Shown: one piece after another, positions 4,979 through 39,713 of the stretch
Position numbering within the stretch: position 1 is the first letter of the stretch
How the letters are laid out: each line of letters begins with the position of its first letter
Source of the DNA: a bacterium
GTDB taxonomy: Bacteria > Myxococcota_A > Bradymonadia > UBA7976 > UBA1532
Direction of reading: 5' to 3'
DNA length: 64,000 bases
Assembly (NCBI GenBank): GCA_030426085.1
Contig: JAUHYW010000046.1
Coordinates: forward strand, 1-64,000
Notes under the pieces: generated by a model
Database searches by the model: none
Told to the model about the DNA's origin: nothing
The model's input: only the letters and a program-made list of their open reading frames with translations
Program-made: the position numbers and the translations under genes

Positions 4979-7900
4979 ATGCGGTTCGACGTGCGGCTGT
5001 TCGTGCGCGAGCACCACCACGGCTACTTCTCGATCGAGGTGCTCGGCGAGTCCGGCCTGCGGCTGTACACCGACGACCTCGACCGGGCCCGGGAGGAGCT
5101 GTCGCTGGTGCTCGGCGACCGCTTCGAGCGCATGCACCCCCGCCTGCTGGGGCCCTACGCCGCCGCCGACAGCCTCGAGCACCGCATGGTCGAGGTGCCC
5201 GACGCGCTGGTGGTCGACGGGCCCGACGGCCCTACGCCCCGCCCGGGGGCGGTGAGCGTGCTGCTCGCCACCGACAAGCGCTGGCTGCGGCTGCATGTGC
5301 CCCGGTGGGATCTGCGGGCTTGGATCGACCGCAAGCGCGACCCCGAGGAGGCCGCCCGCGCGCTGCTGGGGGCCCACGTCGAGAAGGTCGCCGAGCCGAC
5401 CCGCCTCGAGCGGCGCTGCGAGGCCCGCGAGTGGCTGGAGACGCTGTCGATCGAGGCCGATCCCCCCACCCCGCTCGACTTCACCGGGGCCCGCAGCGCG
5501 CTCGATCTGCTGCCCGAGCCCCGCCCCGAGAAGCAGACGCCCGACAAAGAGCGCGATCCGGACGACGAGGACGAGGACGAGGACGACGAAGAAGGCGAGG
5601 ACGGCGACACCCGCCGCCGCCGCCGGGGCCCGAAGCGCCCGCCGACGCCGACCCTGGACGACATCGGGGTGAAGCTGCACCGCCAGGCGGCCGACGGCGA
5701 GCTGGAGCGGGCCCACGGTCGGGCGAAGGCGGTCGAGGAGCTGGCGGCCCTGCTCGCCGCGCCGGGGGCGGCGGTGGCGGTCATCGGCGAGCGGGGGGTG
5801 GGAAAGACGACGGTGCTCAACGAGCTGGTGCACCGCCTGCGCCGCCGCGACCTGCCGAAGAAGCAGCGGCGCCGGGTGTACTTCGTCGACGCCAGCCGGC
5901 TCATCGCCGGCGAAGGCTTCTTCGGCGACTGGCAGCGGCAGTGCCTCAACGTGGTGCAGGAGTGCATCGAGGCCGAGGTCGTCTGGTACATCGGCGGGCT
6001 GCACGCGCTGCTCGACGCGGGCAAGTCGGCCCAGTCGGAGCAGAACGTGGCGCAGCTCTTGCGGCCGTATCTGAGCGGGCGCCGGCTGCGGGTCGTCGCC
6101 GAGGCCAGCGTCGCCGAGTGGACCCGGGTCGAGCTGCGCGACGCCGGCTTCGCCCGCCTCTTCGCCCCGTATCGCATCGAGGAGCCCGATCGGGCCGGCC
6201 TGCGGGGCATCCTCGACGCGGTGGCCGACGAGCTCGTCGACGAGACGGGCATCCCCATCCCCGCCGAGGGCCGGCAGGCGATCGAGGATCTGACGACCCG
6301 CTTCCGGGGTGAGGGCAGCCGGCTGGGGCAGGCGGTGCACCTGCTGCGGCGCCTGGTCGACGACGCGGTGCTGGCCTACGAGCGGGCCCTGGACGCGGCC
6401 CCCGAGGGGCAGGCCCCGGCGCCGACGCCGCTCGACCGGGCGGCGGTGGTCGAGCACTTCTGCGCCGAGACCGGGCTGCCATCGTTTCTGGTGCGCGATG
6501 ATCTGCCGCTCGATCCGGAGGCGGTGCGGGGGCACTTCCGGGCCCGCATCATCGGTCAGGTCGAGGCCGTCGACCGCATGACCGATCTGGTGGCGCTGAT
6601 GAAGGCCGGCCTGTCGGACGTCGACCGCCCGATGGGCTCCTTCCTGTTCGTGGGCCCGACCGGGGTGGGCAAGACCGAGATGAGCAAGGCGCTCGCGGAG
6701 TTCCTCTTCGGCCGCCGCGATCGGCTGGTGCGCTTCGACATGAGCGAGTTCAACCGCCCCGACAGCGTGCACCGCTTCATCGGCGATCGGGGCGAGGAGG
6801 GGCAGCTCATCGCCCACATCCGGCGGCAGCCGTTCTGCGTGCTGCTGCTCGACGAGATCGAGAAGGCCCACCCGGCGGTGTTCGACGTGCTGTTGCAGGT
6901 GCTCGGCGAGGCCCGGCTGACCGATCAGGCGGGGCGCACGGCCGACTTCCGCAACGCGGTGGTGCTGCTGACGAGCAACCTGGGGGTCGACACGTTCAGG
7001 CGGGGGGCCGGCTTCGGCGCGCCGAGCGCCCGCGACTTCCGAGAGCACTTCCTGGCCGAGGCCGAGCGCTTCTTCCGCCCGGAGTTCTTCAACCGCATCG
7101 ATCACATCGTGCCGTTCATGCCCCTCGAGGCGGACGCCATCGACGCCATCACCGGGCGCGAGACGGCGAAGTTCCTCGTCCGGGAGGGCATCACCCAGCG
7201 CGATCTGCACGTCGAGCTGGCCGACGGGGTGCACGGCTGGCTCGCGGCCCGGGGGGTCGATCCGCGCTACGGGGCCCGGCCGCTCAAGCGGTTGATCGAG
7301 CGCCGGCTGGCGGCGCCCCTGGCCCGGCACCTGGGCGGGCGGCAGCTCGGGCCGGGCTACGGGGTGCGGGTCGCGCCGCCGGCGGCGGGCGAGACCGACG
7401 ACCTGGGCTTCGAGGCCATCGAGCACCGCGGCGTGCGGGGGCGGGCGGCGGCCCGCAGCGACGTGCGGGCGTTCATCGTCGAGGTGGCCGGGGTGCGGTG
7501 GCAGGTGCAGCAGTGGCTGGGCGCGGCGCCCTATCGCGAGATGGTGCACGCGGTGCGCCTGCTCGACCGCCTGTCGCAGGATCGGCTCTTCTGGGCCGAT
7601 CGGGCCCGCGCCGAGCGGCGCATGCGGCGCAGCCAGCGCGATCGGGATCTCATCGAGGCGTTCACCGGCATCCGCGATCAGCTCGCCGGGGTCGAGGATC
7701 TGGCCTACGAGGCGCTCCGGGCCCGCAGCGCCGAGTCGCTGCCGATGCTGCGCGCCGAGTACGGCGACGGGGTCGACGCGCTCGACGAGGCCGAGCTGAC
7801 GCTGATGGGGCGCAGCTTCGACGACCCCGACGCGGCGGTGATGTACCTGCGGGGCGGGGGCGACGCCACGGCGTGGCTGCGGCGGGTGGTCGAGATCTAC

Positions 7901-8542
7901 GTCGAGCTGGCCGACGCGCGGGGCTGGCGCATCACCGGGCGGGTGGCCCATCGGACCGAGGCCGGGCTCAAGGCGGATCGGCGCAAGGCGATCCAGGACG
8001 CCGAGGAGAGCGGGCGCAAGCGGCGGCGGCGGGAGAAGTCGACCGATGATCCGCTGCACTGGACGTGGCACAAGGCGCACGACTTCCACCCGGCGGGCGA
8101 CGACGCCCCGCCCGATCCGGCGGCCCGGGAGACCGCCCGGCGCAAGGCGCGGGGCGCGTTCGTGCAGCGGGTGCTCGACGGCAGGCCGGAGGCGGTGCGC
8201 TGCCTCGTCTTCCGGGGGCCGGATGTCGCCGCCCTGCTCGGCCGGGAGGACGGCGTGCATCAGTGGCGCACGCCCGACGGCTCGCCCGAGGTGCGCATCC
8301 AGGTGCAGCCCGGGCAGGCGCACACGGTGAACCCGGCGGTGGTGCTGCCCCGGTTCACCGACGACCGGCGGCGGGTGCTCGACGATCGACGGCGCACGCT
8401 GACCGATGAGCCCCTGGCGCTGGTGATGGCGGTCGAGCCCCGGCTGCACCGGCTCTACGGCCGCTGCCTGCGGGCCTCGCTGTACGACGCGGTCTTCGGC
8501 GCGGGCGCGTGGCGCCTCTTCGAGCGCAAGGGGCAGGCATGA
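4979..8542 (+). CDS. divergent Clp-type double-AAA+ ATPase, paralogue 1, with RF2-like C-terminal region
   Basis: A 1187-residue cytoplasmic protein; the ATG at 4979 has GGGAG eight bases upstream. Residues 1-190 are a non-Clp N-domain, followed by an acidic linker (about 195-211). NBD1 has Walker A GERGVGKT (270-277) and pore segment GEGFFGDW (311-318), but the usual Walker B Asp-Glu is Gly-Gly (339-340). NBD2 has Walker A GPTGVGKT (559-566), intact Walker B Asp625-Glu626, and GARPLKR near 765. There is no ClpB M-domain, and the NBD2 pore loop (GYVGY in Clp proteins) is missing: GDRGEEGQL at 602-610. A ClpP-loop-like AGF is at 677-679. The 390-residue C-terminal extension resembles RF2: a helical part, then RGGGDATAWL (958-967) and EDGVHQW (1090-1096), but no GGQ domain. 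It is translationally coupled (ATGA) to the next gene. Inference: a remodelling ATPase working with its two paralogues. Confidence 0.85.
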   Translation: MRFDVRLFVREHHHGYFSIEVLGESGLRLYTDDLDRAREELSLVLGDRFERMHPRLLGPYAAADSLEHRMVEVPDALVVDGPDGPTPRPGAVSVLLATDKRWLRLHVPRWDLRAWIDRKRDPEEAARALLGAHVEKVAEPTRLERRCEAREWLETLSIEADPPTPLDFTGARSALDLLPEPRPEKQTPDKERDPDDEDEDEDDEEGEDGDTRRRRRGPKRPPTPTLDDIGVKLHRQAADGELERAHGRAKAVEELAALLAAPGAAVAVIGERGVGKTTVLNELVHRLRRRDLPKKQRRRVYFVDASRLIAGEGFFGDWQRQCLNVVQECIEAEVVWYIGGLHALLDAGKSAQSEQNVAQLLRPYLSGRRLRVVAEASVAEWTRVELRDAGFARLFAPYRIEEPDRAGLRGILDAVADELVDETGIPIPAEGRQAIEDLTTRFRGEGSRLGQAVHLLRRLVDDAVLAYERALDAAPEGQAPAPTPLDRAAVVEHFCAETGLPSFLVRDDLPLDPEAVRGHFRARIIGQVEAVDRMTDLVALMKAGLSDVDRPMGSFLFVGPTGVGKTEMSKALAEFLFGRRDRLVRFDMSEFNRPDSVHRFIGDRGEEGQLIAHIRRQPFCVLLLDEIEKAHPAVFDVLLQVLGEARLTDQAGRTADFRNAVVLLTSNLGVDTFRRGAGFGAPSARDFREHFLAEAERFFRPEFFNRIDHIVPFMPLEADAIDAITGRETAKFLVREGITQRDLHVELADGVHGWLAARGVDPRYGARPLKRLIERRLAAPLARHLGGRQLGPGYGVRVAPPAAGETDDLGFEAIEHRGVRGRAAARSDVRAFIVEVAGVRWQVQQWLGAAPYREMVHAVRLLDRLSQDRLFWADRARAERRMRRSQRDRDLIEAFTGIRDQLAGVEDLAYEALRARSAESLPMLRAEYGDGVDALDEAELTLMGRSFDDPDAAVMYLRGGGDATAWLRRVVEIYVELADARGWRITGRVAHRTEAGLKADRRKAIQDAEESGRKRRRREKSTDDPLHWTWHKAHDFHPAGDDAPPDPAARETARRKARGAFVQRVLDGRPEAVRCLVFRGPDVAALLGREDGVHQWRTPDGSPEVRIQVQPGQAHTVNPAVVLPRFTDDRRRVLDDRRRTLTDEPLALVMAVEPRLHRLYGRCLRASLYDAVFGAGAWRLFERKGQA

Positions 8543-9963
8543 GACGCGCGACGCAGCGCGCCCTCCGCCGCAGCGCGGCCGTCATCGCGACCGGCCTCGC
8601 GGGGGCCGCCCTGCTGTGGCCCGCGGCCGCCGCGGCCGACGACCTGCACTACGCGGACTTCCGCTTCGGTCAGCGGGCGCTGGGCATGGGCGGGGCGGTC
8701 ATCGGCTTCGTCGCCGAGCCGGTCGCCGGCTATTACAACCCGGGCGGCCTGGCGTTCCTGGGGCGCACGACCTTCTCCGGATCGGTCAGCTACTTCGGCA
8801 CCGACCGGCGCACGGTGAAGCGGGGCGGCTACTTCGAAGGGCTCGACGCGGTCGTCGGGCGCCAGGACTCCGAGTCGAGCGGGCTGCTCACCCTGCCGTC
8901 GAGCTCGGCGCTGATGAAGTCGCTGGCCGGCGGGCGCCACGTCATCGGATTCTCGACCTACCTGGTCTCCGACACCCGGGAGCGCTTCGCCGATCGCATC
9001 GACCGCGACGATCAGGCGCTCGGCTTCGACCTCGACCGCGCCGTCGACGACCGCACGACCTTCATGGGGCCGAGCTACGGCGTGCGGCTGGGCGAGGCGC
9101 TGGGCCTGGGGCTGTCGGTGTTCTACGCCCGCCGGCAGGCCCGCTCGACGAGCATCCTCGCCGCCCGCTTCGACACCGACGACGACCGGGCCTTCGACGG
9201 CCTGTGGCAGTTCACCGAGTCGTTCAACGCCACCGACGGCATGCTGCTCGCCCGGATAGGGGCCATGTGGCGCCCCGATCCGGCGTGGTCGCTGGGGCTG
9301 ACGGTGACCACCCCCGCGGTGTGGCTGCACGGCGAGGGCACCTACTCGATCCGGGTGATCGACACCGCCCCCGAGCTCTTCGACGAGGGCGACGGCCCCG
9401 GGCTGTACGAGGAGCGCTACGCCGACGAGGCCCGCAGCGGCTACCCGCTGCACGTCGGCCTGGGCGCGGCGTGGATCGGCGAGGATCTGACCGTGGCGCT
9501 CTCGGGCGACCTCTACCTGCCCGTCGCCTACAACCGGCTGGGCGCGGACGCGGCCGAGGGCGAGACGGTCGACGCGGTCAACCGGGTCGAGCGCGAGCTG
9601 ACGGTCAACGGCGCGCTGGGGGTCGAGTACCGCATCACCGAGGCGTTCCCGCTGCGGGCGGGGGTCTTCACCAACCACTCGACGGTGCCCGGCTACACGG
9701 CGAGCGATCGGGCCCGGCTGCCCGACGTCGACCTGTACGGCGCCTCGCTGAGCATCGGCTACGTCTCGGGCGGGGACGCCATCAACCTCGGCGGCGAGGT
9801 CCAGCTCGGCAGGGGCACGGCGACCCGCACGTTCGAGGAGACCGAGGTGCTCGACCGGGCGCAGCTCCGGGTGATGATCTTCTTGTCGGGGGCGGTGGCC
9901 TTCGCCAAGTCGACGGCCGGCAAGGTGATCCGGGAGGTGATGGATGAACCCGGGCAGCCCTGA
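8539..9963 (+). CDS. OmpP1/FadL-like outer-membrane beta-barrel protein
   Basis: A 474-residue exported protein. An Arg-rich N-terminus and hydrophobic helix end near PAAAAADD, a typical signal peptidase I site (about residue 33). The mature start has the FadL-family signature: GQRALGMGGAV, then YYNPGGLAF, followed by alternating beta-strand sequence with many acidic turns. FadL-type barrels carry hydrophobic compounds across the outer membrane. The ATG overlaps the stop of AAA+ paralogue 1 (ATGA) and the gene lies 30 bp before paralogue 2, so it belongs to the same operon. An outer-membrane protein coupled to cytoplasmic AAA+ proteins is unusual. Transport substrate unknown. Confidence 0.75.
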   Translation: MRRATQRALRRSAAVIATGLAGAALLWPAAAAADDLHYADFRFGQRALGMGGAVIGFVAEPVAGYYNPGGLAFLGRTTFSGSVSYFGTDRRTVKRGGYFEGLDAVVGRQDSESSGLLTLPSSSALMKSLAGGRHVIGFSTYLVSDTRERFADRIDRDDQALGFDLDRAVDDRTTFMGPSYGVRLGEALGLGLSVFYARRQARSTSILAARFDTDDDRAFDGLWQFTESFNATDGMLLARIGAMWRPDPAWSLGLTVTTPAVWLHGEGTYSIRVIDTAPELFDEGDGPGLYEERYADEARSGYPLHVGLGAAWIGEDLTVALSGDLYLPVAYNRLGADAAEGETVDAVNRVERELTVNGALGVEYRITEAFPLRAGVFTNHSTVPGYTASDRARLPDVDLYGASLSIGYVSGGDAINLGGEVQLGRGTATRTFEETEVLDRAQLRVMIFLSGAVAFAKSTAGKVIREVMDEPGQP

Positions 9964-9993
9964 TCATCGACCCGCTCGCAGGAGGAGCCCCGC

Positions 9994-12900
9994 ATGCTGC
10001 ACGTCCCGGTGATGGTGTCGGTCGACAAGCGCGGGGTGCACGACGTGCTGCTGCCCGGGCTGACCCAGCGGGTGTTCCGGGGGGTGAGCCTCGCCGAGCT
10101 GCTCGACGACGTGGCCCTGCACCTCATGGAGATCGTGCCGGGCACCGATCCCGCCCGGCTGCCGCGGCTGCGGCTGTGCCCCGACATCGAGCTGCGCCGG
10201 GTGAAGACCAGCGCCCGCGTCGGCGGCACGGCCCGCAAGCCGGTGATGTGGACCGGGCGGCTGTCGGTGGTGGTGACCCGCTGGAAGGGCGACGGGTTCT
10301 CCGTCTGCCGGGTGCCGCGCATGGGCGTCGAGGCGTTCGCCGTTCAGCACACCTCCGATCTGGAGAGCGCCCTGGCCCGCTTCGTGGCCCGCTGGGCGAA
10401 GCGGCAGGGGGAGGACGGGGTCGAGCCCGAGGCGCTGGCCCCGTTCGAGTGCCGGGGCTACGAGTACCTGGAGGTGCTCGAGGTCGACACTGAGCTGCCG
10501 ACGGTGCTGCCCAGCCGCCCCCCGCCGCGCAAGAAGAAGAAGCAGAAGAAGGCCCGGGGCCCCAAGGCCCGCCGCAAGCCGGGCGAGGTCCGCGCGCGCC
10601 CCAAGCGGCGCCTCGTGCCGCCGCGCACGCTGCGCCAGGTGGGGGTCGATCTGACCCACAAGGCCATCGACGGCCGCCTGGGGCGCACCTTCGGGCGCGA
10701 CGCGCTGGTCGAGCAGGTGATGGCCCAGCTCGAGCGGCCGGGGGCGGCGATATTGCTGGTGGGGCCGCCGGGGGTGGGCAAGACGGCGATCGTCTACGAG
10801 GTCGTGCGCCGGCTGGCCGAGCGGGGCGAGGCGCTGCACGCCCGCAGCGACGTGTGGGCGGTCGACGGCAACCGCATCATCGCCGGCATGAGCGTCGTCG
10901 GCGCCTGGGAGCAGCGCTGCAAGACGATGGTCGCCGAGCTCGAGGCCCGGCAGGACGTGCTGTTCGTCGACGATCTCCCGGGGCTGGTCTACACCGGACG
11001 CACCCGGCAGGCCGACACCAACGTCGCCGCCTTCCTCGAGCCGCACATCGCCCGGGGCGACATCCGGATCATCGGCGAGTGCACCGCCGAGCGCCTGGAG
11101 GCCACCCGGGAGGAGGCGGTGGGCTTCTTCTCCCGGTTCCACGTGGTTCAGGTGCCCGAGCTGGACGAAGATCAGACGCTGATGGTGCTGGTCGATACGC
11201 TGCGGGCCATCGAGGCCCGGGAGCCGGTGAGCATCGCCCCCGAGGTGCTCGAGACGACGCTGGCCCTCACCCGCCGCTTCGAGCGCCGCCAGTGTCATCC
11301 GGGCAAGGCGGTCTCGCTGCTTCAGCGGCTGGTGGGCGATTACGCCGAGGTCGAGCGGGACGACCGCGGGCGGCGCGTCGTCGACCGGGAGACGCTCATC
11401 GGCTTCTTCGCCCGGCGCACCGGCCTGCCCCGCTTCGTGCTGTGGGAGCAGCAGTCGCGGCCCCACGGCGAGATCCTGGCGCACTTCACCCGGCGCATCA
11501 TCGGTCAGCCGGCGGCGAGCGCGGCGGCGGCGGCCATCGTCAGCGTCTTGCAGCAGGGCCTCGACGACCCCGAGCGGCCGCTGGCGACGCTGCTGTTCGT
11601 GGGGCCGACCGGGGTGGGCAAGACCGAGACCGCCAAGGCCCTGGCCGAGTATCTGTTCGGCCACGCCGACCGCCTCATCCGCTTCGACATGAGCGAGTTC
11701 CGCGACCCGTGGTCCACCGCCCGGCTCTTCGGCGATCGTGATCAGCCGGAGGGCGAGCTGACCCGCAAGGTGGCCCAGCAGCCGTTCTCGGTGGTGCTCT
11801 TCGACGAGATCGAGAAGGCCCACCCCCGGGTGTTCGACGCCTTCCTGCAAGTCTTCGGCGAGGGGCGGCTGAGCAACGCGGCCGGGCGCACGACGGACTT
11901 CTGCAACACCATCCTCGTGATGACCAGCAACCTGGGGGTGCGCGACGCGCAGCGGTCGCTGGGCTTCGCGGCGGTGGACGGCGCCCGGGAGGCGTCCCAC
12001 TACCGCAAGGCGGCCGAGGGCTTCTTCCGCCCGGAGTTCTTCAACCGCATCGATCGCATCGTGCCGTTCCGCTCGCTGGCCCGCGAGGATCTGCCGCCGC
12101 TGGTGAAGCGCACCCTGGCGGGCATCCTCGGCCGGCGCGGGCTGCGGCGCAGCGGGGTGATGGTCGAGGTCGAGCCGGAGCTGGTCGAGCTGCTGGTCGA
12201 TCGGGGCTTCGACCCCCGGTTCGGGGCCCGCTCGATGCGCCGGGCGCTGGAGCAGCAGCTCACCGTGCCCCTGGCCCGGCGCATGGTGAGTCAGCCGGTC
12301 GATCGCACGACGCTGGTGCAGCTCTACCGCGAGGGCGAGGCCATCGGCATGACCCTGTGGGGCCTGGCGCCGGTGCCGGCGGTCGGGGCCCCGCCCCGGG
12401 CCATCGACGGCTGGCCGGCGCTGCGGGCCCGGGTGGCCGAGCTGCGGGCCGATCTGGCGGGGCTGATCGGCCCCGAGACCCGGGCCCGGCACGAGGCCGA
12501 GCGGGGGGCGCTGCTCGATCGCTTCAACGCGGCCCGCGCCGCGGGCGAAGGGCTGCCCGATCGGGCGTGGGCCCGGCTGAACCTGCTCAACGGGCTGCTC
12601 GATCCCAAGGCCGGCAGCCGCTTCGGCGGACCGCCGTCGCTGGCCGACATCCGGCTGGGGCTCGAGGCCATCGAGGAGCGCTACCTGTCGCGCTACGACT
12701 TCCTGGAGGAGGTCGAGCTGGTGGGCGCGCAGGCCGAGCCCATCTGGGAGTCGTGGGATCCGAGCCGGGCCCGGGCGGTGGGCACCGAGATGCCCCTGGA
12801 GCGTGATCCGCGGGCGACCTTCGGCCCGGCGGTGACGGCGACGCTGCGCCTGGAGCGCGAGCTGGCCGACGTGGCGTTCCGGGTGGACGCGCTGGGGGAC

Positions 12901-13524
12901 GCCGACCCCCAGGCGGCGCTGGTCCGGGTGCTGCCGGGCACCGACGAGCCGGTCAGCCGGGGCTGGGCGACAGCCGTCGCGCGGCAGCTCGCGGGGGTCC
13001 TGGCCCGGCGGGCCGACGTGCGCTGGTTCGCCCGGGTCGAGGGCCACTGGACGGCGGCCGATCACCCGCCGCGGGACGACGACGACAGCGAGCCGTGGGG
13101 CGCGGCGGACGGGCTGGCGCTGGGCCTGACCGGCTTCGGCGTGCGCCGGCTGGTGGCGGCCGAGACCGGGTTCCACCTGTCGATGCGCTACAGCGGGGCC
13201 GATCTGGTGTGCGCCCTGGCCCGGGTCGATCTGGTCGAGGGCGAGGGTGACGATGGGGGCGGCGCGGTGCAGCGGCTGTCGACAGACGACGCGGCCTTCG
13301 CCGCCTGGCGGGCCGCCCGCCGACGGGGCGAGCTGGCCCCCGATGCACCCGGGCCCCGGCCGCAGGTGCCGCTGCGCCGCCGCTTCGTCTCGGGGGTGGC
13401 GATCGATCCCGAGACCGGCGTCGAGCTGACCCTGCGCGACGGCCTGACCCCGGTCTTCGCCCGCCGGATGCTGGTGGCCCACCGTCGCCGCCGGGCCGGG
13501 CAGGCGCCCGGCGAGGAGGGCTGA
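9994..13524 (+). CDS. divergent Clp-type double-AAA+ ATPase, paralogue 2
   Basis: A 1176-residue protein; the ATG has GGAGGA about eight bases upstream. The N-domain (1-175) differs from Clp_N and is followed by a strongly basic linker (about 179-206, many Lys/Arg). NBD1: Walker A GPPGVGKT (257-264); pore segment GMSVVGAW (298-305) without an aromatic at the usual tyrosine position; Walker B ends Asp326-Asp327 instead of Asp-Glu. NBD2: Walker A GPTGVGKT (537-544), shortened pore loop GDRDQPEGEL (580-589), Walker B Asp604-Glu605, and ClpP-loop-like LGF (656-658). The last 400 residues are helical, then hold a segment (GFGVRRLVAAETGFHLSM, around 1045-1064) resembling the release-factor PCRF stretch ending GVHRL. 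The GGQ loop is absent. It lies 3 bp before paralogue 3, in the same operon. Confidence 0.85.
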   Translation: MLHVPVMVSVDKRGVHDVLLPGLTQRVFRGVSLAELLDDVALHLMEIVPGTDPARLPRLRLCPDIELRRVKTSARVGGTARKPVMWTGRLSVVVTRWKGDGFSVCRVPRMGVEAFAVQHTSDLESALARFVARWAKRQGEDGVEPEALAPFECRGYEYLEVLEVDTELPTVLPSRPPPRKKKKQKKARGPKARRKPGEVRARPKRRLVPPRTLRQVGVDLTHKAIDGRLGRTFGRDALVEQVMAQLERPGAAILLVGPPGVGKTAIVYEVVRRLAERGEALHARSDVWAVDGNRIIAGMSVVGAWEQRCKTMVAELEARQDVLFVDDLPGLVYTGRTRQADTNVAAFLEPHIARGDIRIIGECTAERLEATREEAVGFFSRFHVVQVPELDEDQTLMVLVDTLRAIEAREPVSIAPEVLETTLALTRRFERRQCHPGKAVSLLQRLVGDYAEVERDDRGRRVVDRETLIGFFARRTGLPRFVLWEQQSRPHGEILAHFTRRIIGQPAASAAAAAIVSVLQQGLDDPERPLATLLFVGPTGVGKTETAKALAEYLFGHADRLIRFDMSEFRDPWSTARLFGDRDQPEGELTRKVAQQPFSVVLFDEIEKAHPRVFDAFLQVFGEGRLSNAAGRTTDFCNTILVMTSNLGVRDAQRSLGFAAVDGAREASHYRKAAEGFFRPEFFNRIDRIVPFRSLAREDLPPLVKRTLAGILGRRGLRRSGVMVEVEPELVELLVDRGFDPRFGARSMRRALEQQLTVPLARRMVSQPVDRTTLVQLYREGEAIGMTLWGLAPVPAVGAPPRAIDGWPALRARVAELRADLAGLIGPETRARHEAERGALLDRFNAARAAGEGLPDRAWARLNLLNGLLDPKAGSRFGGPPSLADIRLGLEAIEERYLSRYDFLEEVELVGAQAEPIWESWDPSRARAVGTEMPLERDPRATFGPAVTATLRLERELADVAFRVDALGDADPQAALVRVLPGTDEPVSRGWATAVARQLAGVLARRADVRWFARVEGHWTAADHPPRDDDDSEPWGAADGLALGLTGFGVRRLVAAETGFHLSMRYSGADLVCALARVDLVEGEGDDGGGAVQRLSTDDAAFAAWRAARRRGELAPDAPGPRPQVPLRRRFVSGVAIDPETGVELTLRDGLTPVFARRMLVAHRRRRAGQAPGEEG

Positions 13525-13527
13525 GTC

Positions 13528-16500
13528 ATGCAGCAGCGCTTCCACCTCTTCGTGCGGCAGCACCCCAACGACTGGCTGACGGTCTCGGTGCTCAGCCACC
13601 CCCGCTACGCCGCCTTCGGCCCGACGATCGGGCCCCTCAAAGAGCAGCTCGCCGAGGTGCTGAGCCACGAGCTGGGCGAGGGCCGGATCTCGGCGACCGA
13701 CGCGGTCTTCGACGACATCGGCCGCCGATCGCTCGAGCTGGAGCTGCGGGCGGTGCAGCACGACCGCCTCATCCGGGTGCCGATGCGCTTCACGCTGCTG
13801 GTCCGCCCGCTGCCGAAGGCCGGCGACGACGTCTTCGAGGTCCGCATCCCCCGGCTCGATCGGGTCTTCCGCATCAGCGGGGCCGACAACATCCGGCCGT
13901 GGAGCGAGGAGATCATCCGGGGGCACTTCCACCTCGACCCGGTCGAGGCGCTGCTGCCCTACCAGAGCGCGCGCGGCGAGCGGCTGGACGAGGTGCTGGT
14001 CACCTGGCAGCGGCCCAAGAGCAAGGCGGCGCTGAAGCGGGCGGCGAAGCAGGCCCGGGCCACGGCCGAGGAGGATGATCCGTTCGGCTTCGGCCACACC
14101 CCCCGGCGCACGCCGCTGGCCCAGGTGGGGGTCGAGCTGGTCGAAGAGGCCCGCGCGGGGCGCATCCCCCGGGCCGAGCTGCGCGATGATCTGATCGAGC
14201 GGCTGCTGGGCATCCTCGACGCGCCGCACGCCCGCAGCCTGCTGCTGCTGGGGCCGTCGGGGGTGGGCAAGACCGCGCTGGTGCACGAGCTGGCCCACCG
14301 CGTCGCCGAGGGCCGGGCCCCCGACCGCCTGCACGGGGTCCCCATCTGGCACGTCACTGGGGGGCGCATCATCGCCGGCATGAAGTACCTCGGCGAGTGG
14401 CAGGCCCGGTGTCAGGCCATCGTCGAGGAGGTCCGCGCCTGCCGGGGGCTGCTCTTCGTCGAGTCGCCCTACGAGCTGATGACCGCCGGCGGGTCGGACG
14501 GCATGAACGTGGCCAGCTTCCTGCTCGGCCCGATGCGCAGCGGCGAGATCACGGTCATCGCCGAGGCCACCCCCGACGGGCTGCTGCTCGCCGAGCAGTC
14601 GGGGCCGGGCTTCGTCGAGGCCCTGCGCCGGGTGCCGGTGCCCCCGTTCGAGCCCGACGCGGCCCGGGCCATCCTCGAGCGGGCGGCGGTGCGGCTGTCG
14701 AAAGAGCACAAGGTGCGCTTCACCGACGCCGGCCTGAGCCGGGCGCTGGACGTGCTGGCCCGCTTCGGCGACGCCGACGCGCTGCCCGGCTCGGGGCTGG
14801 AGCTGATGGGGCACATGGCCCGGCTGCCGGCGAGCGAGGGCCGGGCGGCGCAGCGGGTCGAGGATCGCCCGGCGCTGGGTCCGGCCGAGGCGGTGCGGGC
14901 GTTCGCCCGGCGCTCGGGCTTCTCCGAGCGGCTCATCGACCCCGACGTGCTGCTCGACGCGGACGCGATCCAGCGGTGGTTCGAAGAGCGCATCATCGGC
15001 CAGCCCGACGCCACCGAGCTGCTGACGAACCTCATCCTGGTCATCAAGGCCAGCCTCGACGATCCGCAGCGGCCGCTGGGCTCGTTCCTGTTCATGGGCC
15101 CGACCGGGGTGGGCAAGACCGAGTCGGCGCTGACCCTGGCCGAGTACCTGTTCGGCGACCGGGAGCGGGTCATCCGCTTCGACATGAGCGAGTACGGCTA
15201 CCCGGGCAGCGCCGCCCGGCTGGTGGGCGTCGGGCGGCAGGAGGGCGACCTGACCCGCAAGGTGCGCGAGCAGCCGTTCTGCGTGCTGCTGCTCGACGAG
15301 GTCGAGAAGGCCGACGGCGAGGTGTTCGACATCCTGCTGCAAGTGCTCGGCGAGGGGCGGTTGACCGACGGCACCGGGCGCACGGTGCGCTTCGGGCACG
15401 CCATCGTGATCATGACCAGCAACCTGGGCGCGAGCGATCGGCGGCGCATCGGGCTGGGTGGCATCGAGCGGCCGCATGCCATGGCGCAGCACTACCGCGA
15501 GGCGGCGCAGGCGTTCTTCCGGCCGGAGTTCGTCAACCGGGTCGACTTCCTGGTGCCCTTCGCCCCGCTGGACGCGCCCGCGGTGCGGGGCATCGCCCGG
15601 CGCATGCTGGACGCGGCGCTGAAGCGGGAGGGCTTCGCCCGGCGAGGCATCACGGTGAGGCCGCGGGACGAAGTCCTCGATCTGTTGATGCGGCACGGCT
15701 TCGACCCGGAGTACGGGGCCCGGCCGATGAAGCGGGCGGTCGAGCAGCGGGTGCTGGTGCCGCTCTCCCGGCGGCTGGTGCTGCGGCAGACGAGCCGGCC
15801 GGCGGACTTCGAGCTGTACGTGCACGACGGGCGGGTGGCGGTGGTCGACTCGACCGGGCCGGCCGGCGGCCCGTGCCCCGCGCTGGCCGGGCTGGCGGCG
15901 AGCCACGACGGGCTGTGGCGCGATCGCATCCGCGCCATCCGGGCCCGCTTGCAGCAATGGGATCAGAGCCGGCTGCTGCACGACCTGCGGGCGGCCGGCG
16001 CCGAGGACGAGGCCGCCCTGGCCCTGCCCCGGCGGGTCGAGGCGGCCCGGGCGGCGATCGTCGACCTGGACCCGCTGGGCGAGGCGCCCGACGCGGCGGC
16101 GGTGGCCCGACGCCAGCAGGCAGGCGAAGCCATGGATGCCATCCTGCGTACGCTGGAGTGGGATCTGTGCCTCGCCGCGCTCGAGACCCGGGATGACATC
16201 ACGCTGGCGATCGACTCCCCCACCCTGCACCCGGCGGGGCGGGCGGCGGCCGAGCGGCTGGCGGCGGCCTACGCGGCGTGGGGCGAGGCCCGGGGGTTCA
16301 CCGTCGAGCGCGGCGAGCGGGACGGCGTGTGGCAGGTGTCGGTCGCCGGGCCGTCGGCGGGCACGCTGCTGGGGCTGGAGGTCGGCCGGCATCGGCTGAT
16401 GCCGGAGGACGACGCCGATCGGGCGGTCGATCTGTGGGTCCGGGCCGAGGGCGAGGCCCCGGATGCCACCGTGCGCGAGATCAGCGGCGATACGCTGTGG

Positions 16501-16605
16501 GATCCGACCGCCGAGGTCGAGCGCCCGGTCGGGCTCGACGGGTTGAGCGCGGCGCTGGACGACTTCCTGCTCGCCCGCCTGTGCCGGGCGGTGGCCGACT
16601 CATGA
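13528..16605 (+). CDS. divergent Clp-type double-AAA+ ATPase, paralogue 3
   Basis: A 1025-residue protein starting 3 bp after paralogue 2, with GAGGAGGG as ribosome site. Its N-terminus (FHLFVRQHPND) resembles that of paralogue 1. NBD1: Walker A GPSGVGKT (242-249), aromatic pore segment GMKYLGEW (284-291), but Walker B Asp-Glu is Glu312-Ser313. NBD2: Walker A GPTGVGKT (524-531), shortened pore loop GVGRQEGDL (567-575), Walker B Asp590-Glu591, and ClpA-like IGL (641-643) where ClpA carries its ClpP-docking tripeptide. The C-terminal 270 residues include GEARGFTVE (919-927) and VGRHRLM (952-958), which line up by eye with WAERRGFKVE and GVHRLVR of the RF2 PCRF domain. The GGQ motif is absent. 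Its stop overlaps the start of the 70-residue membrane protein. Confidence 0.85.
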   Translation: MQQRFHLFVRQHPNDWLTVSVLSHPRYAAFGPTIGPLKEQLAEVLSHELGEGRISATDAVFDDIGRRSLELELRAVQHDRLIRVPMRFTLLVRPLPKAGDDVFEVRIPRLDRVFRISGADNIRPWSEEIIRGHFHLDPVEALLPYQSARGERLDEVLVTWQRPKSKAALKRAAKQARATAEEDDPFGFGHTPRRTPLAQVGVELVEEARAGRIPRAELRDDLIERLLGILDAPHARSLLLLGPSGVGKTALVHELAHRVAEGRAPDRLHGVPIWHVTGGRIIAGMKYLGEWQARCQAIVEEVRACRGLLFVESPYELMTAGGSDGMNVASFLLGPMRSGEITVIAEATPDGLLLAEQSGPGFVEALRRVPVPPFEPDAARAILERAAVRLSKEHKVRFTDAGLSRALDVLARFGDADALPGSGLELMGHMARLPASEGRAAQRVEDRPALGPAEAVRAFARRSGFSERLIDPDVLLDADAIQRWFEERIIGQPDATELLTNLILVIKASLDDPQRPLGSFLFMGPTGVGKTESALTLAEYLFGDRERVIRFDMSEYGYPGSAARLVGVGRQEGDLTRKVREQPFCVLLLDEVEKADGEVFDILLQVLGEGRLTDGTGRTVRFGHAIVIMTSNLGASDRRRIGLGGIERPHAMAQHYREAAQAFFRPEFVNRVDFLVPFAPLDAPAVRGIARRMLDAALKREGFARRGITVRPRDEVLDLLMRHGFDPEYGARPMKRAVEQRVLVPLSRRLVLRQTSRPADFELYVHDGRVAVVDSTGPAGGPCPALAGLAASHDGLWRDRIRAIRARLQQWDQSRLLHDLRAAGAEDEAALALPRRVEAARAAIVDLDPLGEAPDAAAVARRQQAGEAMDAILRTLEWDLCLAALETRDDITLAIDSPTLHPAGRAAAERLAAAYAAWGEARGFTVERGERDGVWQVSVAGPSAGTLLGLEVGRHRLMPEDDADRAVDLWVRAEGEAPDATVREISGDTLWDPTAEVERPVGLDGLSAALDDFLLARLCRAVADS

Positions 16606-17766: not shown

Positions 17767-18204
17767 TCAGCGGGTGGCCACCCACTCCGCCGAGCCATTC
17801 GGCGTCTCCCACAAACGGATGCGCACGACCTCGACCCCGTGCGGCTCGAGCAGCCGGCGGGCGATGACGGCCAGCTCGGCGACGACGGCCTCGGCGGTGG
17901 GCGGGCGCTCGATCCAGTACACCGGCCGGCCGTGAGCCGCGTTGCTCGCGGCGATGGCCGCGGTGGCCGGATCGGGGTCGCCCTTCATGACGATCGCGGT
18001 GTGATCCCAATGCTCGTCGATCCAGCCGCCGACCTCGCGCTTGATGACCCCGAAGTCGACCACCCGCCCGCAATGATCGAGCTCGGGCGCGGTGCAGTGG
18101 ATCTCGGCGGCGTAGCGATGTCCATGCCACGCCGAGCACTTGTGCTCGTGGTCGGGGATGCGATGCATGGCGTCCCACTCGAGGCGGCGGATGCAGGTGA
18201 GCAC
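17767..18204 (-). CDS. queD: 6-carboxytetrahydropterin synthase QueD
   Basis: A 145-residue enzyme of the 6-pyruvoyl-tetrahydropterin synthase fold. In queuosine biosynthesis QueD makes 6-carboxy-5,6,7,8-tetrahydropterin from dihydroneopterin triphosphate. Family features near the N-terminus are the zinc histidines (H14, then HGH at 27-29), catalytic Cys23, and a C-terminal RLWETPNGSAEW segment with the conserved Glu of the T-fold. I chose the GTG at 18204 because it follows AGGAGA and gives a normal N-terminus; another GTG at 18216 would add four residues. The gene is divergent from queC-queE. Confidence 0.88.
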   Translation of the reverse strand: MLTCIRRLEWDAMHRIPDHEHKCSAWHGHRYAAEIHCTAPELDHCGRVVDFGVIKREVGGWIDEHWDHTAIVMKGDPDPATAAIAASNAAHGRPVYWIERPPTAEAVVAELAVIARRLLEPHGVEVVRIRLWETPNGSAEWVATR

Positions 18205-18328
18205 GGGTCTCCTCACGGGCTTCGGGCGCGCAGTGGCCGGTTCGCGGCGCGGGAGATCACCACGCCTTGACCGACGAGGTCAACCCGCGCATGCTGCGCC
18301 CCGCGCACGCTCGACCCGAGGGAGCCCC

Positions 18329-19018
18329 ATGCCCGACACCGCAGTCGTCCTCGCCAGCGGCGGCCTGGACTCGACCACCTGCATGGCCGTGGCGGCCGAC
18401 GCTGGCCTGCGCATCGTGGCGCTCAGCTTCGATTACGGGCAGCGGCACGCGATCGAGATCGAGGCCGCGGCCCGGGTGGCGAAGCACTTCGGCGCGGCGC
18501 GGCACATCGTCAGCGCGGTCGGCCTGCTGCGCGAGCTCGGCGGCTCGGCCCTGACCGCCGACATCGACGTGCCCCGCGATCGGGACGAGGCGGCGATGGC
18601 CGACGACATCCCGGTGACCTACGTGCCGGGGCGCAACCTCATCTTCCTCAGCCACGCGACCGCGGTCGCCGAGGTGGTCGGGGCGCGGGCGGTCTACATC
18701 GGGGTCAACGCGGTGGACTACAGCGGCTACCCCGACTGCCGGCCCGAGTTCATCGACGCGTTCACCCGCGCGGCCCGGTTGGCGACCAAGGTGGGGATCG
18801 AGGGCGCGGATCTCGAGATCCGGATGCCGCTCGTCGAGTTGAGCAAGGCCGACATCATCCGCCTCGGCCAGCGGCTCGGCGCGCCGTATCACCTGACCCA
18901 CTCGTGCTACGACCCGGCCCCGGACGACGCCGCCTGCGGGCGCTGCGACTCATGCCGGCTGCGGCTCAAGGGCTTCGCCGAGGCCGGCCTCGACGATCCC
19001 ATCCGCTACGCGGGCTGA
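18329..19018 (+). CDS. queC: 7-cyano-7-deazaguanine synthase QueC
   Basis: A 229-residue ATP-dependent enzyme converting 7-carboxy-7-deazaguanine and ammonia to preQ0. The N-terminal pyrophosphatase loop SGGLDS (about 10-15) and the following FDYGQRH segment are diagnostic. The C-terminal zinc site is complete: Cys in HSCYDPAPD, then CGRCDSC. GAGGGAG lies just before the ATG at 18329. The stop is 5 bp before queE, so both are in one operon. The 124-bp gap to queD shows no recognisable preQ1 riboswitch. Confidence 0.94.
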   Translation: MPDTAVVLASGGLDSTTCMAVAADAGLRIVALSFDYGQRHAIEIEAAARVAKHFGAARHIVSAVGLLRELGGSALTADIDVPRDRDEAAMADDIPVTYVPGRNLIFLSHATAVAEVVGARAVYIGVNAVDYSGYPDCRPEFIDAFTRAARLATKVGIEGADLEIRMPLVELSKADIIRLGQRLGAPYHLTHSCYDPAPDDAACGRCDSCRLRLKGFAEAGLDDPIRYAG

Positions 19019-19023
19019 CAGCG

Positions 19024-19671
19024 ATGGCCTACAAGGTCAAAGAGACCTACTACACCCTGCAAGGCGAGGGGGCCCAGACCGGGCGGGCGGCGGTGTTCTG
19101 CCGCTTCGCCGGCTGCAACCTGTGGAGCGGGCGCGAGCAGGATCGGGCGAAGGCGGCGTGCACCTTCTGCGACACCGACTTCGTGGGCCTCGACGGCCCC
19201 GGCGGGGGGCGCTTCGCCGACGGGGGCGCGCTCGCCGATCACATCCTGGGCGTCTGGGCGGCGGCGGGCGACGGCAGCGGGCGGCGCTACGTCGTCTTCA
19301 CCGGGGGCGAGCCGACCTTGCAGCTCGACGACGCGGTGTGTGATGCGCTGCACGCCCGGGGCTTCGAGGTCGCCATCGAGACCAACGGCACCCGCCCGGT
19401 CCCGGCCGGCGTCGACTGGATCTGCGTCAGCCCCAAGCCCCGCTCGACGGTCGTCCAGACCCGGGGCGACGAGCTGAAGCTGGTCTACCCCCAGCCCGAG
19501 CCCGAGGTGCAGCCCGCGCGCTTCGCGGGGTGGGCCTTCGATCACTTCTTCCTCCAGCCGCTCGACGCGCCGGGCGCCGCGCAGCACACCGCGGCAGCGG
19601 CCGAGTACTGTCGCCGGCATCCCCGGTGGCGGCTCTCGCTCCAGACCCATAAGCTGATCGGGCTGCCCTGA
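19024..19671 (+). CDS. queE: 7-carboxy-7-deazaguanine synthase QueE (radical SAM)
   Basis: A 215-residue radical SAM enzyme making 7-carboxy-7-deazaguanine from QueD's product. The start is typical (YYTLQGEGAQTGRAAVFCRF), followed by the atypical QueE cluster spacing: CRFAGCNLW, a 14-residue insertion, then CTFCDTDF. The SAM-binding FTGGEPTLQ (about 95-103) and ETNGT are present. Start ATG lies 5 bp after queC. With queC and queD it gives the three enzymes from dihydroneopterin triphosphate to preQ0; FolE and QueF are not in this window. Confidence 0.93.
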   Translation: MAYKVKETYYTLQGEGAQTGRAAVFCRFAGCNLWSGREQDRAKAACTFCDTDFVGLDGPGGGRFADGGALADHILGVWAAAGDGSGRRYVVFTGGEPTLQLDDAVCDALHARGFEVAIETNGTRPVPAGVDWICVSPKPRSTVVQTRGDELKLVYPQPEPEVQPARFAGWAFDHFFLQPLDAPGAAQHTAAAAEYCRRHPRWRLSLQTHKLIGLP

Positions 19672-34895: not shown

Positions 34896-36171
34896 GGGAA
34901 GCGGCCGCGCTATCGACCGCCGCGAACGCCTGCTCGATGATCGCGAGCGCCTCGTCCAGATCGGCCCGGGTGTGGGCCGCGGTCACGCACGCCCGGAAGC
35001 GCAGCCCGTCCACCGGCACCGAGGGGTAGTCGAACGGCACGATGAAGAGCCCCCGCGCCCGCAGAGCGTCGGCGAGGCGGTAGAGGCGGCTGCGATCGGC
35101 GCCCACCACGATGGGGACCACGTGGGTGTTCGAATCTCCGGTGTCGATGCCCCGCCGGTTCAGCCCGGCGCGGAAGTACGCCGCGTTGTCCGCCAGCCGC
35201 CGCGCGAGACCCGGATCGGCCTGCACCACGTCCAGCGCGGCCAGGTGAGCGGCGACCATGCACGTCGGCAGGGCGCAGCTGAAGCCATAGCTGTCGGCGT
35301 AGTGGCACAGGTAGTCGATGGTCGCGGCCGGGCCGCTGACGAAGCCGCCCATGCCACCGAATGCCTTCGAGAAGGTGCCATAGTACAGCGCGACCTCATC
35401 GCTCATGCCATGGTGCTCGGTCACCCCGCCCCCGGCCGCGCCGCAGGCGAGCACCGAGTGGGCCTCGTCGACGATGAGGCCCACGCCGTGGGCCGCGCAG
35501 ACCGGCGCCAGCCGCGGCAGATCGGCCATGTCGCCGTCGAGGGAGTAGACGCCCTCGACCATCACCACCCGCCGGGCGCCGGCCGTCTCGGTCAGCGCCC
35601 GGTCGAGGGCGTCGGGGTCGTTGTGGGCGAAGAACCTGAGCCGGGCTCCGGCCAGCCGCACCCCGTCGATGACGCTCAGGTGGATGCGGGCGTCGACGAC
35701 GGCCACGTCGCCCTTGCGCAGCAGCCCCGCGGTCAGCCCCAGCACGCCGGCGTAGCCGCTGTTGAAGAGCATCGTGCGCTCCCGACCGAGCAGCCGCGAC
35801 AGGCGCCGCTCGAGCGCGTCGTGCAGACCGGTCCGGCCGGAGATCATCGGCGAGCCGCACGCCCCGACGCCGTAGCGTTCGAGGGCGCGGGCCGCCGCCT
35901 CGACCACCGCGGGGTGCCGGGCCAGCCCCAGGTAGTTGTAGGCGCTGAGGTTGATCACCGAGCGCCGGCCGGCCCCGTCGATGAGCCTGCCCCGCGGCTC
36001 GGGCGGGCCGTCCATGGCCTGCTGGTAGTGCCCGGCGGCGCCGGCGGTCAGCGCCCGCCATCGAGTGAACTCGGGGTCGATCTCGAGCGGGTCGTCGGTG
36101 AAGCTGGTCGCGAAGTCGGCGAGGCTGTAGCGGGCCGCGGCCCGGGTCGCCGGATCATCCCAGGCGCTCAT
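34858..36171 (-). CDS. alpha-oxoamine synthase (PLP), stand-alone copy
   Basis: A 437-residue PLP enzyme of the family of 8-amino-7-oxononanoate synthase, serine palmitoyltransferase and CqsA. These condense an acyl thioester with an amino acid, losing CO2, to give an alpha-aminoketone. Visible motifs: NYLGLARHP, GACGSPMISG, DEAHS (235-239) and TFSKAFG with PLP-binding Lys269. A 50-residue N-terminal extension precedes the core. It is the last gene of the minus-strand cluster, overlapping the upstream reductase (ATGA), and is a paralogue of the ACP-fused synthase at 37297-38922. Inference: it off-loads the finished chain from an ACP. Confidence 0.87.
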   Translation of the reverse strand: MSAWDDPATRAAARYSLADFATSFTDDPLEIDPEFTRWRALTAGAAGHYQQAMDGPPEPRGRLIDGAGRRSVINLSAYNYLGLARHPAVVEAAARALERYGVGACGSPMISGRTGLHDALERRLSRLLGRERTMLFNSGYAGVLGLTAGLLRKGDVAVVDARIHLSVIDGVRLAGARLRFFAHNDPDALDRALTETAGARRVVMVEGVYSLDGDMADLPRLAPVCAAHGVGLIVDEAHSVLACGAAGGGVTEHHGMSDEVALYYGTFSKAFGGMGGFVSGPAATIDYLCHYADSYGFSCALPTCMVAAHLAALDVVQADPGLARRLADNAAYFRAGLNRRGIDTGDSNTHVVPIVVGADRSRLYRLADALRARGLFIVPFDYPSVPVDGLRFRACVTAAHTRADLDEALAIIEQAFAAVDSAAASLSPAGPPDGRSG

Positions 36172-36989
36172 GAGGCGGGCTGCGCGGGCTGCGACGCCCG
36201 GGCGGCGAACAGGCCCATGGAGTCATCGCTGAACGTGCCCCCGCGATCGACGGTGAGCACCTGACCATTGACGCCGTCGAGCAGGCCGCTGCACAGGGCG
36301 ACGACGACCCCGGCGACGTCCTCCGGCGTGACCCAATGCCGCGCCGTGTGCGGCGCCACCCGCTCGGCCCAGCCGGCGAAGTCGGCCCCGAACGCCCGGT
36401 CGAAGGTCTCGGTGCGCACCGCCCGGGAGCGGACCACGTTGACCCGCACGTCGTCCCGTCGCAGGTGGCAGGCCAGATAGCGACACAGCACCTCGAGCGC
36501 CGACTTGGCCGCGGCCATGTAGTCATAGCCCACGGTGTAGTGATCGGGGCCGGTCGAGCTCATGGCCACCACATACCGCGGCAGATGGCCGAATGCGCGC
36601 TCGGTCTGGCGCAGGTAGTCGACGGCCGGCCACGCGCTGTAGCTGAGGCTCTGGTGCAGCGCGCGGCGGTCGAGGTCGCGCCAGTCACCGGCGAGGGGCG
36701 CGCCGCCGGCGTTGAGCACCAGGGCGTCGAGGCCATCGAGCCGATCCTTCAGCCCGTCGAACAGAGCGACGGTGTCATCGAGCGAGGCGACGTCGGCCGG
36801 GGCGATGATCGGCGGCGGGGCGTCGGCGGCGGCGAAGAGCGCCTGCACCTCGCGCTCGTCGGCCGTGCCCCAGCGCCAGGTCAGCACGCAGCGCACGCCG
36901 CGGCGGGCGAGGGCCAGGGCGGTGGCCAGGCCGATGCCCCGGGTGCCGCCGGTCACCAGGGCGGTCCGGATCGGGGGGCGGGCGCGCAT
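36168..36989 (-). CDS. short-chain reductase, FabI/FabL-like, copy B
   Basis: A 273-residue NAD(P)H-dependent SDR. The cofactor loop is TGGTRGIGLA near residue 13; the catalytic region SSTGPDHYTVGYDYMAAAKSAL has the extended Tyr-x(6)-Tyr-x-Met-x(3)-Lys spacing seen in enoyl-ACP reductases of the FabI/FabL type, pointing to enoyl reduction rather than ketoreduction. It is clearly similar to the SDR at 38919-39713 (shared YSAWPxVDY and NVVRxR stretches). Its ATG overlaps the ACP stop by one base (TGATG) and its stop overlaps the oxoamine synthase start. Confidence 0.8.
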   Translation of the reverse strand: MRARPPIRTALVTGGTRGIGLATALALARRGVRCVLTWRWGTADEREVQALFAAADAPPPIIAPADVASLDDTVALFDGLKDRLDGLDALVLNAGGAPLAGDWRDLDRRALHQSLSYSAWPAVDYLRQTERAFGHLPRYVVAMSSTGPDHYTVGYDYMAAAKSALEVLCRYLACHLRRDDVRVNVVRSRAVRTETFDRAFGADFAGWAERVAPHTARHWVTPEDVAGVVVALCSGLLDGVNGQVLTVDRGGTFSDDSMGLFAARASQPAQPAS

Positions 36990-37249
36990 CAGCTCTTCTC
37001 CAGGGCCTTGGCGTGCAGCAGGTCGACGAGGCCGGCGACGTCGGTCAGGTGCTCGAGCTCCGCGCGCGGGATGCGGATGCGCAGGGTCCGCATCGAGCCC
37101 GAGACGACCTCGACGATGTCCAGGCTGTTGGCGCCCAGGTCCTTCATCGACAGGGACGTGTCGATCGGCTGCCCCTCGAGCTGCATCACGGTGCGGCGCA
37201 GGTGGGTCAGGACGATCCGCTCGATCTCTTCCCGGGTCTGATGGCTCAT
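36989..37249 (-). CDS. acyl carrier protein
   Basis: An 86-residue carrier protein with phosphopantetheine attachment Ser42 in DLGANSLDIVEVV. The following helix (TLRIRIPRAELEHL) matches the N-terminal ACP domain of the fused synthase at 38922, so the two carriers are paralogues. AAGGAGAGA gives a strong ribosome site before the ATG at 37249. It sits between the ACP-oxoamine synthase and the second SDR/oxoamine synthase pair. Inference: it carries the growing or finished chain; a role as the donor ACP of the beta-branching cassette is also possible. Confidence 0.92.
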   Translation of the reverse strand: MSHQTREEIERIVLTHLRRTVMQLEGQPIDTSLSMKDLGANSLDIVEVVSGSMRTLRIRIPRAELEHLTDVAGLVDLLHAKALEKS

Positions 37250-37296
37250 GGTGTCTCTCTCCTTCTGGTGTGACTCACGCTGCTCGCGGCGTGCGA

Positions 37297-38922: not shown

Positions 38923-39713
38923 CGGTGCCCCCCGGCCCCGCGGGCCTCGACGTAGTCGTGCATGAGGTTGTCGCGGAAGGTCGCCCCGCCATCGACCTCG
39001 ACGATCTGACCGGTCATGCCATCCATCAGGCCGCTCGCCAGGGCCACGATGGCATCGGCGATCTCGTCCGCCGGCTGGATCTGACCCCGCGCGGCCAGGA
39101 ACGGCACGCACTCGGCGCCGAAGGTGGCTTCGAACGCCCGGGTCGCGATCCACCGCCCGCGCACGATGTTGACCCGGGTGCCATGGGGCTCGAGGTGATG
39201 GGCCAGATAGCGGGCGAGCACCTCGAGGCAGGCCTTGGCCGCCCCGATGGTGTCGTAGCCGGGGGTGAAGCGCACCCCGCCGTAGGACGAGACGCCCACG
39301 ACATGCCGGGGCCAGGCGCCGGTCGCCGCGGCGATGTGGCGGGTGTAGTCGACGAGCGGCCACGCGCTGTAGGCGACGGCGCGCTGGAGGTCCTTGAGCG
39401 TCAGATCGTCGAGCGAGGCCGCCGGTCGACCGAACGCGACGTTGGACACGAAGAGGTCGACCCCGCCGAGGTCGGCGATCTGCGCCATCAGCGCCGCGGT
39501 GTCGTCGGCGCGGGACACATCGGCCCGCACCAGCAGCGGAGGCGGCGCGCCCACCGCGGCGAAGGCGGCGGGCAGGTCGTCTTCGTCGCCGCCCCAGCCA
39601 TAGGTCAGCACGCAGCGGGCGCCGCGGGCGCCGAGCGCCAGCGCCGTGGCCCGCCCGATGCCGCGGGTCGCGCCGGTGATCAGGGCCCGGCGGCCGGTCA
39701 GGTCAATACGCAT
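38919..39713 (-). CDS. short-chain reductase, FabI/FabL-like, copy A
   Basis: A 264-residue SDR with TGATRGIGRA and the catalytic stretch SSYGGVRFTPGYDTIGAAKACL. It is paralogous to the reductase at 36168-36989; both lie next to an ACP and an oxoamine synthase. The most likely role is enoyl reduction on ACP-bound chains, less likely reduction of the aminoketone. Its first bases overlap the end of the ECH2 gene by 11 bp, and its stop overlaps the ACP-synthase start. Confidence 0.8.
   Translation of the reverse strand: MRIDLTGRRALITGATRGIGRATALALGARGARCVLTYGWGGDEDDLPAAFAAVGAPPPLLVRADVSRADDTAALMAQIADLGGVDLFVSNVAFGRPAASLDDLTLKDLQRAVAYSAWPLVDYTRHIAAATGAWPRHVVGVSSYGGVRFTPGYDTIGAAKACLEVLARYLAHHLEPHGTRVNIVRGRWIATRAFEATFGAECVPFLAARGQIQPADEIADAIVALASGLMDGMTGQIVEVDGGATFRDNLMHDYVEARGAGGHR

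Follow-up and report, generated by a model that had tools for sequence, protein, structure and literature searches.

Clp-type ATPases of the Bradymonadia with tails related to class I release factors

Three Clp-type AAA+ proteins encoded in the window (the whole 64,000-nucleotide stretch of DNA that was analysed) end in tails that are class I release factors (RFs) without the GGQ domain; in the tails of paralogues 1 and 3 (P1 and P3) the codon-reading loop is missing as well. Kinship with RF2 and its PCRF domain, which a sequence-only reading had proposed for all three tails, was supported by profiles for P1 and P3 and by predicted structures for P1 and paralogue 2 (P2). The same reading had taken the fusion to be undescribed, and no account of a Clp-release factor fusion was found in the open-access texts searched.

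Three Clp-type genes and their relatives

The positions of the three genes and of their parts are given in Table 1. All three products contained two AAA+ modules and a ClpB D2-small domain (Pfam PF07724, PF10431 and PF00004; AAA_2), after which the chains extended for ∼379 (P1), ∼406 (P2) and ∼267 (P3) residues, in line with the 270 to 400 extra residues that had been noted from the sequence. Residues of P1 are numbered from the ATG at position 4979, a start that is consistent with the N-termini of its relatives. In a phylogenetic tree, the AAA+ regions of P1, P2 and P3 each fell into a clade of their own (bootstrap support of 100% for all three), and the five housekeeping Clps of the genome lay outside these clades. 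None of the three proteins reached the NCBIfam equivalog cut-off for ClpA, ClpB or ClpV. Their scores amounted to roughly one-fourth to one-third of the cut-offs (345 to 352 bits versus 1232 for ClpB, and 308 to 331 bits versus 993 for ClpA). The N-domains (4979-5692 in P1, 9994-10668 in P2 and 13528-14157 in P3) matched no Pfam family, and no Clp_N match was obtained with the three isolated N-domains at E values up to 1. By eye, their first 50 residues appeared HicB-like.

Table 1. Coordinates of the Clp-type genes and of their parts in the window
Feature	Position	Strand	Description
P1	4979..8542	+	1187 aa; N-domain, AAA+ D1, AAA+ D2, D2-small, RF2-like tail
P1 AAA+ D1	5693..6502	+	Walker A retained; Walker B acidic pair gone
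P1 AAA+ D2	6545..7372	+	Walker A, Walker B, Arg finger and sensor 2 retained; GYVG deleted; GF loop at ClpP-loop position
P1 RF2-like tail	7403..8539	+	379 aa, without GGQ domain; PCRF match, PDB profile match, AF2 model
P1 tail, RF domain 1	7436..7810	+	Helical, FW motif; model helices 12-136; hhalign to RF2 27-162
P1 tail, RF domain 2	7832..8311	+	PCRF, RGGGDATAWL...EDGVHQW, K/R-rich insert; Pfam, joint alignment, model strands 144-303
P1 tail, putative RF domain 4	8366..8497	+	Directly after domain 2; fold alignment and joint alignment
P2	9994..13524	+	1176 aa; layout as P1
P2 RF-like tail	12304..13521	+	Domains 1, 2 and 4 (4 putative), no GGQ; AF2 and Foldseek
P3	13528..16605	+	1025 aa; layout as P1
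P3 RF-like tail	15802..16602	+	hhalign to RF2

The phylum, Myxococcota, was scanned by comparing a P1-tail profile with 379 genomes, and the matches comprised only ORFs of the size of the Clp fusions (996 to 1511 aa) together with RF2-type ORFs, mostly of 350 to 430 aa. Within the class Bradymonadia, P1 was present in 15 genomes, and P2 in all of these and in one further, incomplete genome (Fisher p for their co-occurrence in the class, 7e-13, computed over related genomes with kinship ignored). Both genes adjoin in most loci; in Bradymonas sediminis (G008) they lie 0.6 Mb apart, and both are still present. Carriers include the cultured predators Bradymonas sediminis FA350 (PMC7188933), Persicimonas caeni YN101 and Microvenator marinus V1718 (PMC11509652). 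A collection scan with six close tails rendered five metagenome-assembled genomes, all of them already found in the phylum scan, and no tail relatives were found on plasmids, phages or viral contigs. In two genomes of another family of the phylum (G236 and G160; loci L044 and L048), P1 stands alone at its locus, with conserved upstream neighbours of its own. Other Myxococcota families contain divergent ORFs of 1145 to 1289 aa with RF2-like stretches (G299:C73 [L087], G216:C351 and G287:C14), which are probably distant members.

The genes flanking the P1, P2 and P3 loci contained no pointer to translation, and a conserved operon partner was discarded, flanking genes differing between genera. 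A defence system was likewise rejected, as PADLOC gave generic AAA matches only. In the window, P1 and P2 are separated by an ORF (8539-9963, +) that weakly matches the outer-membrane family FadL/Toluene_X; in the sister genome (L035), and in most relatives, the two genes lie side by side. QueD-like (17767-18216, -) and QueE-like (18904-19671, +) genes of the 7-deazaguanine pathway were recognised by eye immediately after the Clp cluster, on its downstream side. Short-chain dehydrogenases and ketosynthase-like and acyltransferase-like genes were also seen by eye in one stretch (36168-45869, -), perhaps a polyketide or lipid cluster.

Release factor domains kept and lost in the tails

All the motifs quoted for the three proteins in the sequence-only reading sit at the residues given there, namely, RGGGDATAWL at 958, YVELADARGW at 974 and EDGVHQW at 1090 in P1, AAETGFHL at 1055 in P2, and GEARGFTVE at 919 and VGRHRLM at 952 in P3. 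The PCRF family (PF03462) matched P1 with 24.6 bits when the whole protein was used (gathering cut-off, 24), with 27.5 bits when the tail was used alone and with 28.8 bits in a whole-genome scan, and NCBIfam prfB (TIGR00020) also matched it (1.6e-6). A profile of 18 P1 tails, compared with all PDB sequences, found RF2 best (E value of 4.7e-10), followed by RF1, with a single unrelated protein among the matches listed (E value of 0.06). For its part, hhalign between the P1 tail and an RF2 profile from the same phylum reached 98.5% (E value of 3e-15).

The AF2 model of the P1 tail (pLDDT of 74.7 and pTM of 0.68), which like that of P2 was built from a six-row alignment, was matched exclusively by RF2 or RF1 in its best 20 Foldseek matches. 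Compared with RF2, the model gave a Z score of 12.2, with its residues 19 to 363 aligned to RF2 residues 4 to 364 and a global superposition at 6 to 7 Å. The fold alignments of P1 and P2 spanned RF2 from residue 4 to residues 362 to 364, that is, from domain 1 through the end of domain 4, and skipped ∼100 RF residues in both cases. In a joint alignment in which domain 3 had been removed from RF2, the tails tracked domain 1 (FW), domain 2 (Gly-rich loop, LY.RLA..GW helix and ExGxH) and, after these, the segment of domain 4, where VKDLRTG of a relative (L044) faced VKDLRTQ of RF2. Domain 4 was in register by sequence alone and never significant; its presence in the tails is putative, based on predicted structure plus register. 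These alignments extend what had been read from the motifs, in that the helical stretch noted earlier corresponds to RF domain 1, and RF domain 4 would follow the gap of the missing domain 3.

The claim that the tails have no GGQ domain agreed with the alignments, none of the 35 tails having GGQ at the domain 3 position; the string occurred in just two of them, within domain 2 in L039 and within domain 1 in L047. In the P1 and P3 tails, the loop that follows ExGxH/GxHR is shortened and SPF is gone; therefore, stop-codon reading by the tail is unlikely. Across P1 relatives the ExGxH core was maintained, and the Gly-rich helix tip was absent in the more distant ones (L040 to L050). Domain 2 of P1 also carries a K/R-rich insert, GRKRRRREK (window 8000-8050), which recurs in close relatives (L035 to L039) and is only suggestive of a possible contact with RNA.

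The P2 tail reached only 10% in hhalign against the RF2 profile, and none of 15 P2 tails matched Pfam PCRF. The 46 best Foldseek matches to its AF2 model (pLDDT of 75.3 and pTM of 0.73) were without exception RF1/RF2-type proteins (1gqe, E value of 3.7e-8), and the Z score was 15.1 over 280 residues against RF. As modelled, the P2 tail is an RF fold, recognisable through structure and beyond sequence detection. The P3 tail, with 96.2% in hhalign against the RF2 profile (E value of 2.4e-9), is an RF fold by profile comparison. Among the P3 relatives compared, this tail is confined to the genus, and six others stop after D2-small. The RF-type fold matches of the tails were bacterial RF1/RF2, mitochondrial RF1 or PrfH. 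Factors of the archaeo-eukaryotic aeRF1 type (Balon and Pelota) were not among the fold matches listed, which is compatible with a remote link.

Chance likeness between helical tails of GC-rich proteins and PCRF was considered, given that just a few short motifs had been visible initially. However, column-shuffled alignments never exceeded 3.3% in hhalign, reversed alignments also stayed at background, and only 0.1% was obtained when the N, D1 or D2 region of these proteins was compared with the RF2 profile, whereas RF1/RF2 occupied the top of both the sequence-profile and the fold searches. Shuffling, reversal and same-protein controls ruled chance out, and we attach almost no credence to it. 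No unrelated fold, the outcome that had been set against the proposal, was seen when profile comparison and structure prediction were run.

The ATPase motor

The DE pair of the D2 Walker B motif was intact in all 41 family proteins, and Walker A, the Arg finger and sensor 2 of D2 appear retained in the alignment. The acidic pair (DE) of the D1 Walker B motif was present in none of the 41. Judged by these motifs, the only ATPase site left intact is that of D2. Threading Clp proteins use the GYVG pore loop of D2, and the role of its tyrosine is established for the Clp family. This loop was deleted from every one of the 41 proteins, while none of the genome's five housekeeping Clps lacked it. The aromatic residue of the D1 pore loop was found in all P3, some P1 and a few P2 proteins. 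The motif content suggests that the D2 ring is active and would not thread substrates in the usual manner. The name "unfoldase", given to these proteins in the sequence-only reading, is therefore doubtful, with both GYVG and the D1 Walker B pair lost in 41/41.

The position of the ClpP-binding loop of ClpA, ClpC and ClpX is established in the Clp family. At this site, between D2 sensor 1 and the Arg finger, all 41 proteins showed a glycine followed by F, L or I (strict [ILVM]G[FLI] in 34 of them), the P1 of the window having AGF. A link of P1, P2 and P3 to ClpP is suggestive only. The host genome has its own RF1, RF2, ClpP (one strong match) and tmRNA; therefore, the Clp-RF system would be additional to them and not a substitute. 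On contig G000:C101 (L058 and L099), a 683-aa frame with a weak CLP_protease match was observed ∼11 kb from a Clp ATPase gene.

Proposed function and comparison with known systems

We give slightly better than an even chance to P1 and P2, plus P3 where present, being a set of Hsp100/Clp-like ATPases that act together, with the RF tail docking the ring on the ribosome. The RF part would serve for docking and bring the ATPase ring to the A site and stalk base of the ribosome; once docked, the RF arm would neither read the codon nor release the peptide, and ATP hydrolysis by D2 would drive remodelling at the docking site. As possible outcomes, a stalled or idle ribosome would be cleared, or the nascent chain would be passed to ClpP via the GF/GL loop. 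The logic would be that of GGQ-less factors with the motor built in, such as Balon, which binds the A site without GGQ in hibernation (PMC10901736), and Pelota, which acts without GGQ on stalled ribosomes (PMC12868832).

Joint action is favoured by the co-occurrence of P1 and P2 in 15 of 15 genomes of the class, including the unlinked pair of G008. Ribosome docking by the tails we infer from the skipping of domain 3 while the C-terminal end of RF still aligns, and from the loss of both GGQ and the SPF loop. The D2 Walker B pair and the G-F/L/I step, each found in all 41 proteins, also count in favour of the proposal. Against docking, what the tails retain is chiefly core residues, the tip that reads the codon has been lost and P2 has diverged beyond sequence recognition, all of which would be expected also if the RF fold had been put to a different use. 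Further points against it are the flanking genes, which vary and give no hint of translation, the kinship of the genomes in which P1-P2 co-occurrence was counted, and models built from six-row alignments, with the P1 superposition at 6 to 7 Å. A more specific version of the docking proposal, which we put forward tentatively and at less than even confidence, is a heteromeric Clp ring with several catalytically dead RF arms that would take hold of stalled or idle ribosomes at the A site, D2 hydrolysis then remodelling or dismantling the ribosomes or handing nascent chains to ClpP. If true, this ATP-driven machine would have no described parallel in bacteria and would unite the roles of Pelota and Cdc48 in a single bacterial complex.

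Use of the RF fold away from ribosomes, for oligomerisation, substrate binding or regulation within a heteromeric AAA+ ring, is the main rival; it seems to us rather unlikely. The absence of the SPF loop would fit such a co-option, as would the loss of the Gly-rich helix tip in L040 to L050, the P2 tails that Pfam does not recognise (0/15), a P3 tail lost or never there in most lineages, and a divergence between paralogues that fits the assembly of a heteromer. However, three RF domains (4 putative) have stayed together in the order seen in RF, the ExGxH core persists among P1 relatives, and the retention of the fold by P1 and P2 over the whole class suggests that its surface is still in use. 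A sub-case of docking, which we consider unlikely and a little more so than co-option, is a ribosome-silencing factor for hibernation or inhibition, in which the tails would obstruct the A site, with the AAA+ ring loading or removing them and leaving nascent chains untouched. Balon, a GGQ-less and codon-blind A-site binder in hibernation (PMC10901736), is a precedent for it, and the missing D1 hydrolysis site and D2 pore loop argue against threading; yet a pure blocker would not need the G-F/L/I loop that all 41 proteins have at the ClpP-docking site. That same loop, together with the two AAA+ modules, D2-small and the strong ClpP match of the genome, would suit a canonical subunit of a Clp unfoldase-protease, with a tail that brings in substrates to be threaded into ClpP. 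We judge this improbable, as GYVG is deleted and D1 Walker B gone in 41/41, and the scores fall far below the ClpA and ClpB equivalog cut-offs.

Whichever use prevails, the tails resemble RF2 (prfB; PCRF, PF03462) in having domains 1, 2 and 4 (the last putative) in order, with the FW helix, the LY.RLA..GW helix and the ExGxH core, and RF2 is their best PDB match by profile and fold. Unlike RF2, they lack the GGQ domain 3 and, in P1 and P3, the SPF decoding loop, and they are fused to a double AAA+ ATPase; they are not release factors. With the class I Hsp100/Clp ATPases (ClpA, ClpB, ClpC and ClpV) the proteins share two AAA+ modules, D2-small and intact D2 ATPase motifs, but in P1 to P3 no Clp_N was found, D1 Walker B is gone, the D2 GYVG loop is deleted and an RF tail of 270 to 400 residues is added. 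A Clp lineage without the D2 pore loop and with the D2 ATPase bears on roles of the ring other than threading.

Balon and Pelota/Dom34, of the aeRF1 family, are likewise RF relatives that have lost GGQ and codon reading and act at the A site, an action that for the Clp tails would be by analogy. They differ in belonging to the archaeo-eukaryotic RF family, in being stand-alone proteins with EF-Tu-type GTPases as partners and in having no fused AAA+ motor. To our knowledge, loss of GGQ with retention of the A site is known only in that family (Pelota and Balon); in the bacterial RF family GGQ has been lost too, in at least two of the three paralogues over the whole class, and in fusion with an ATPase ring. 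Bacterial ribosome remodelling or rescue driven by ATP has in this system a concrete candidate, which can be tested in cultured predators. In ribosome-associated quality control, Cdc48/VCP is also an AAA+ ATPase with a double ring and has ribosome-bound chains as its targets, a likeness of logic only; unlike the Clp-RF proteins, it is recruited via ubiquitylated chains and has no release factor domain.
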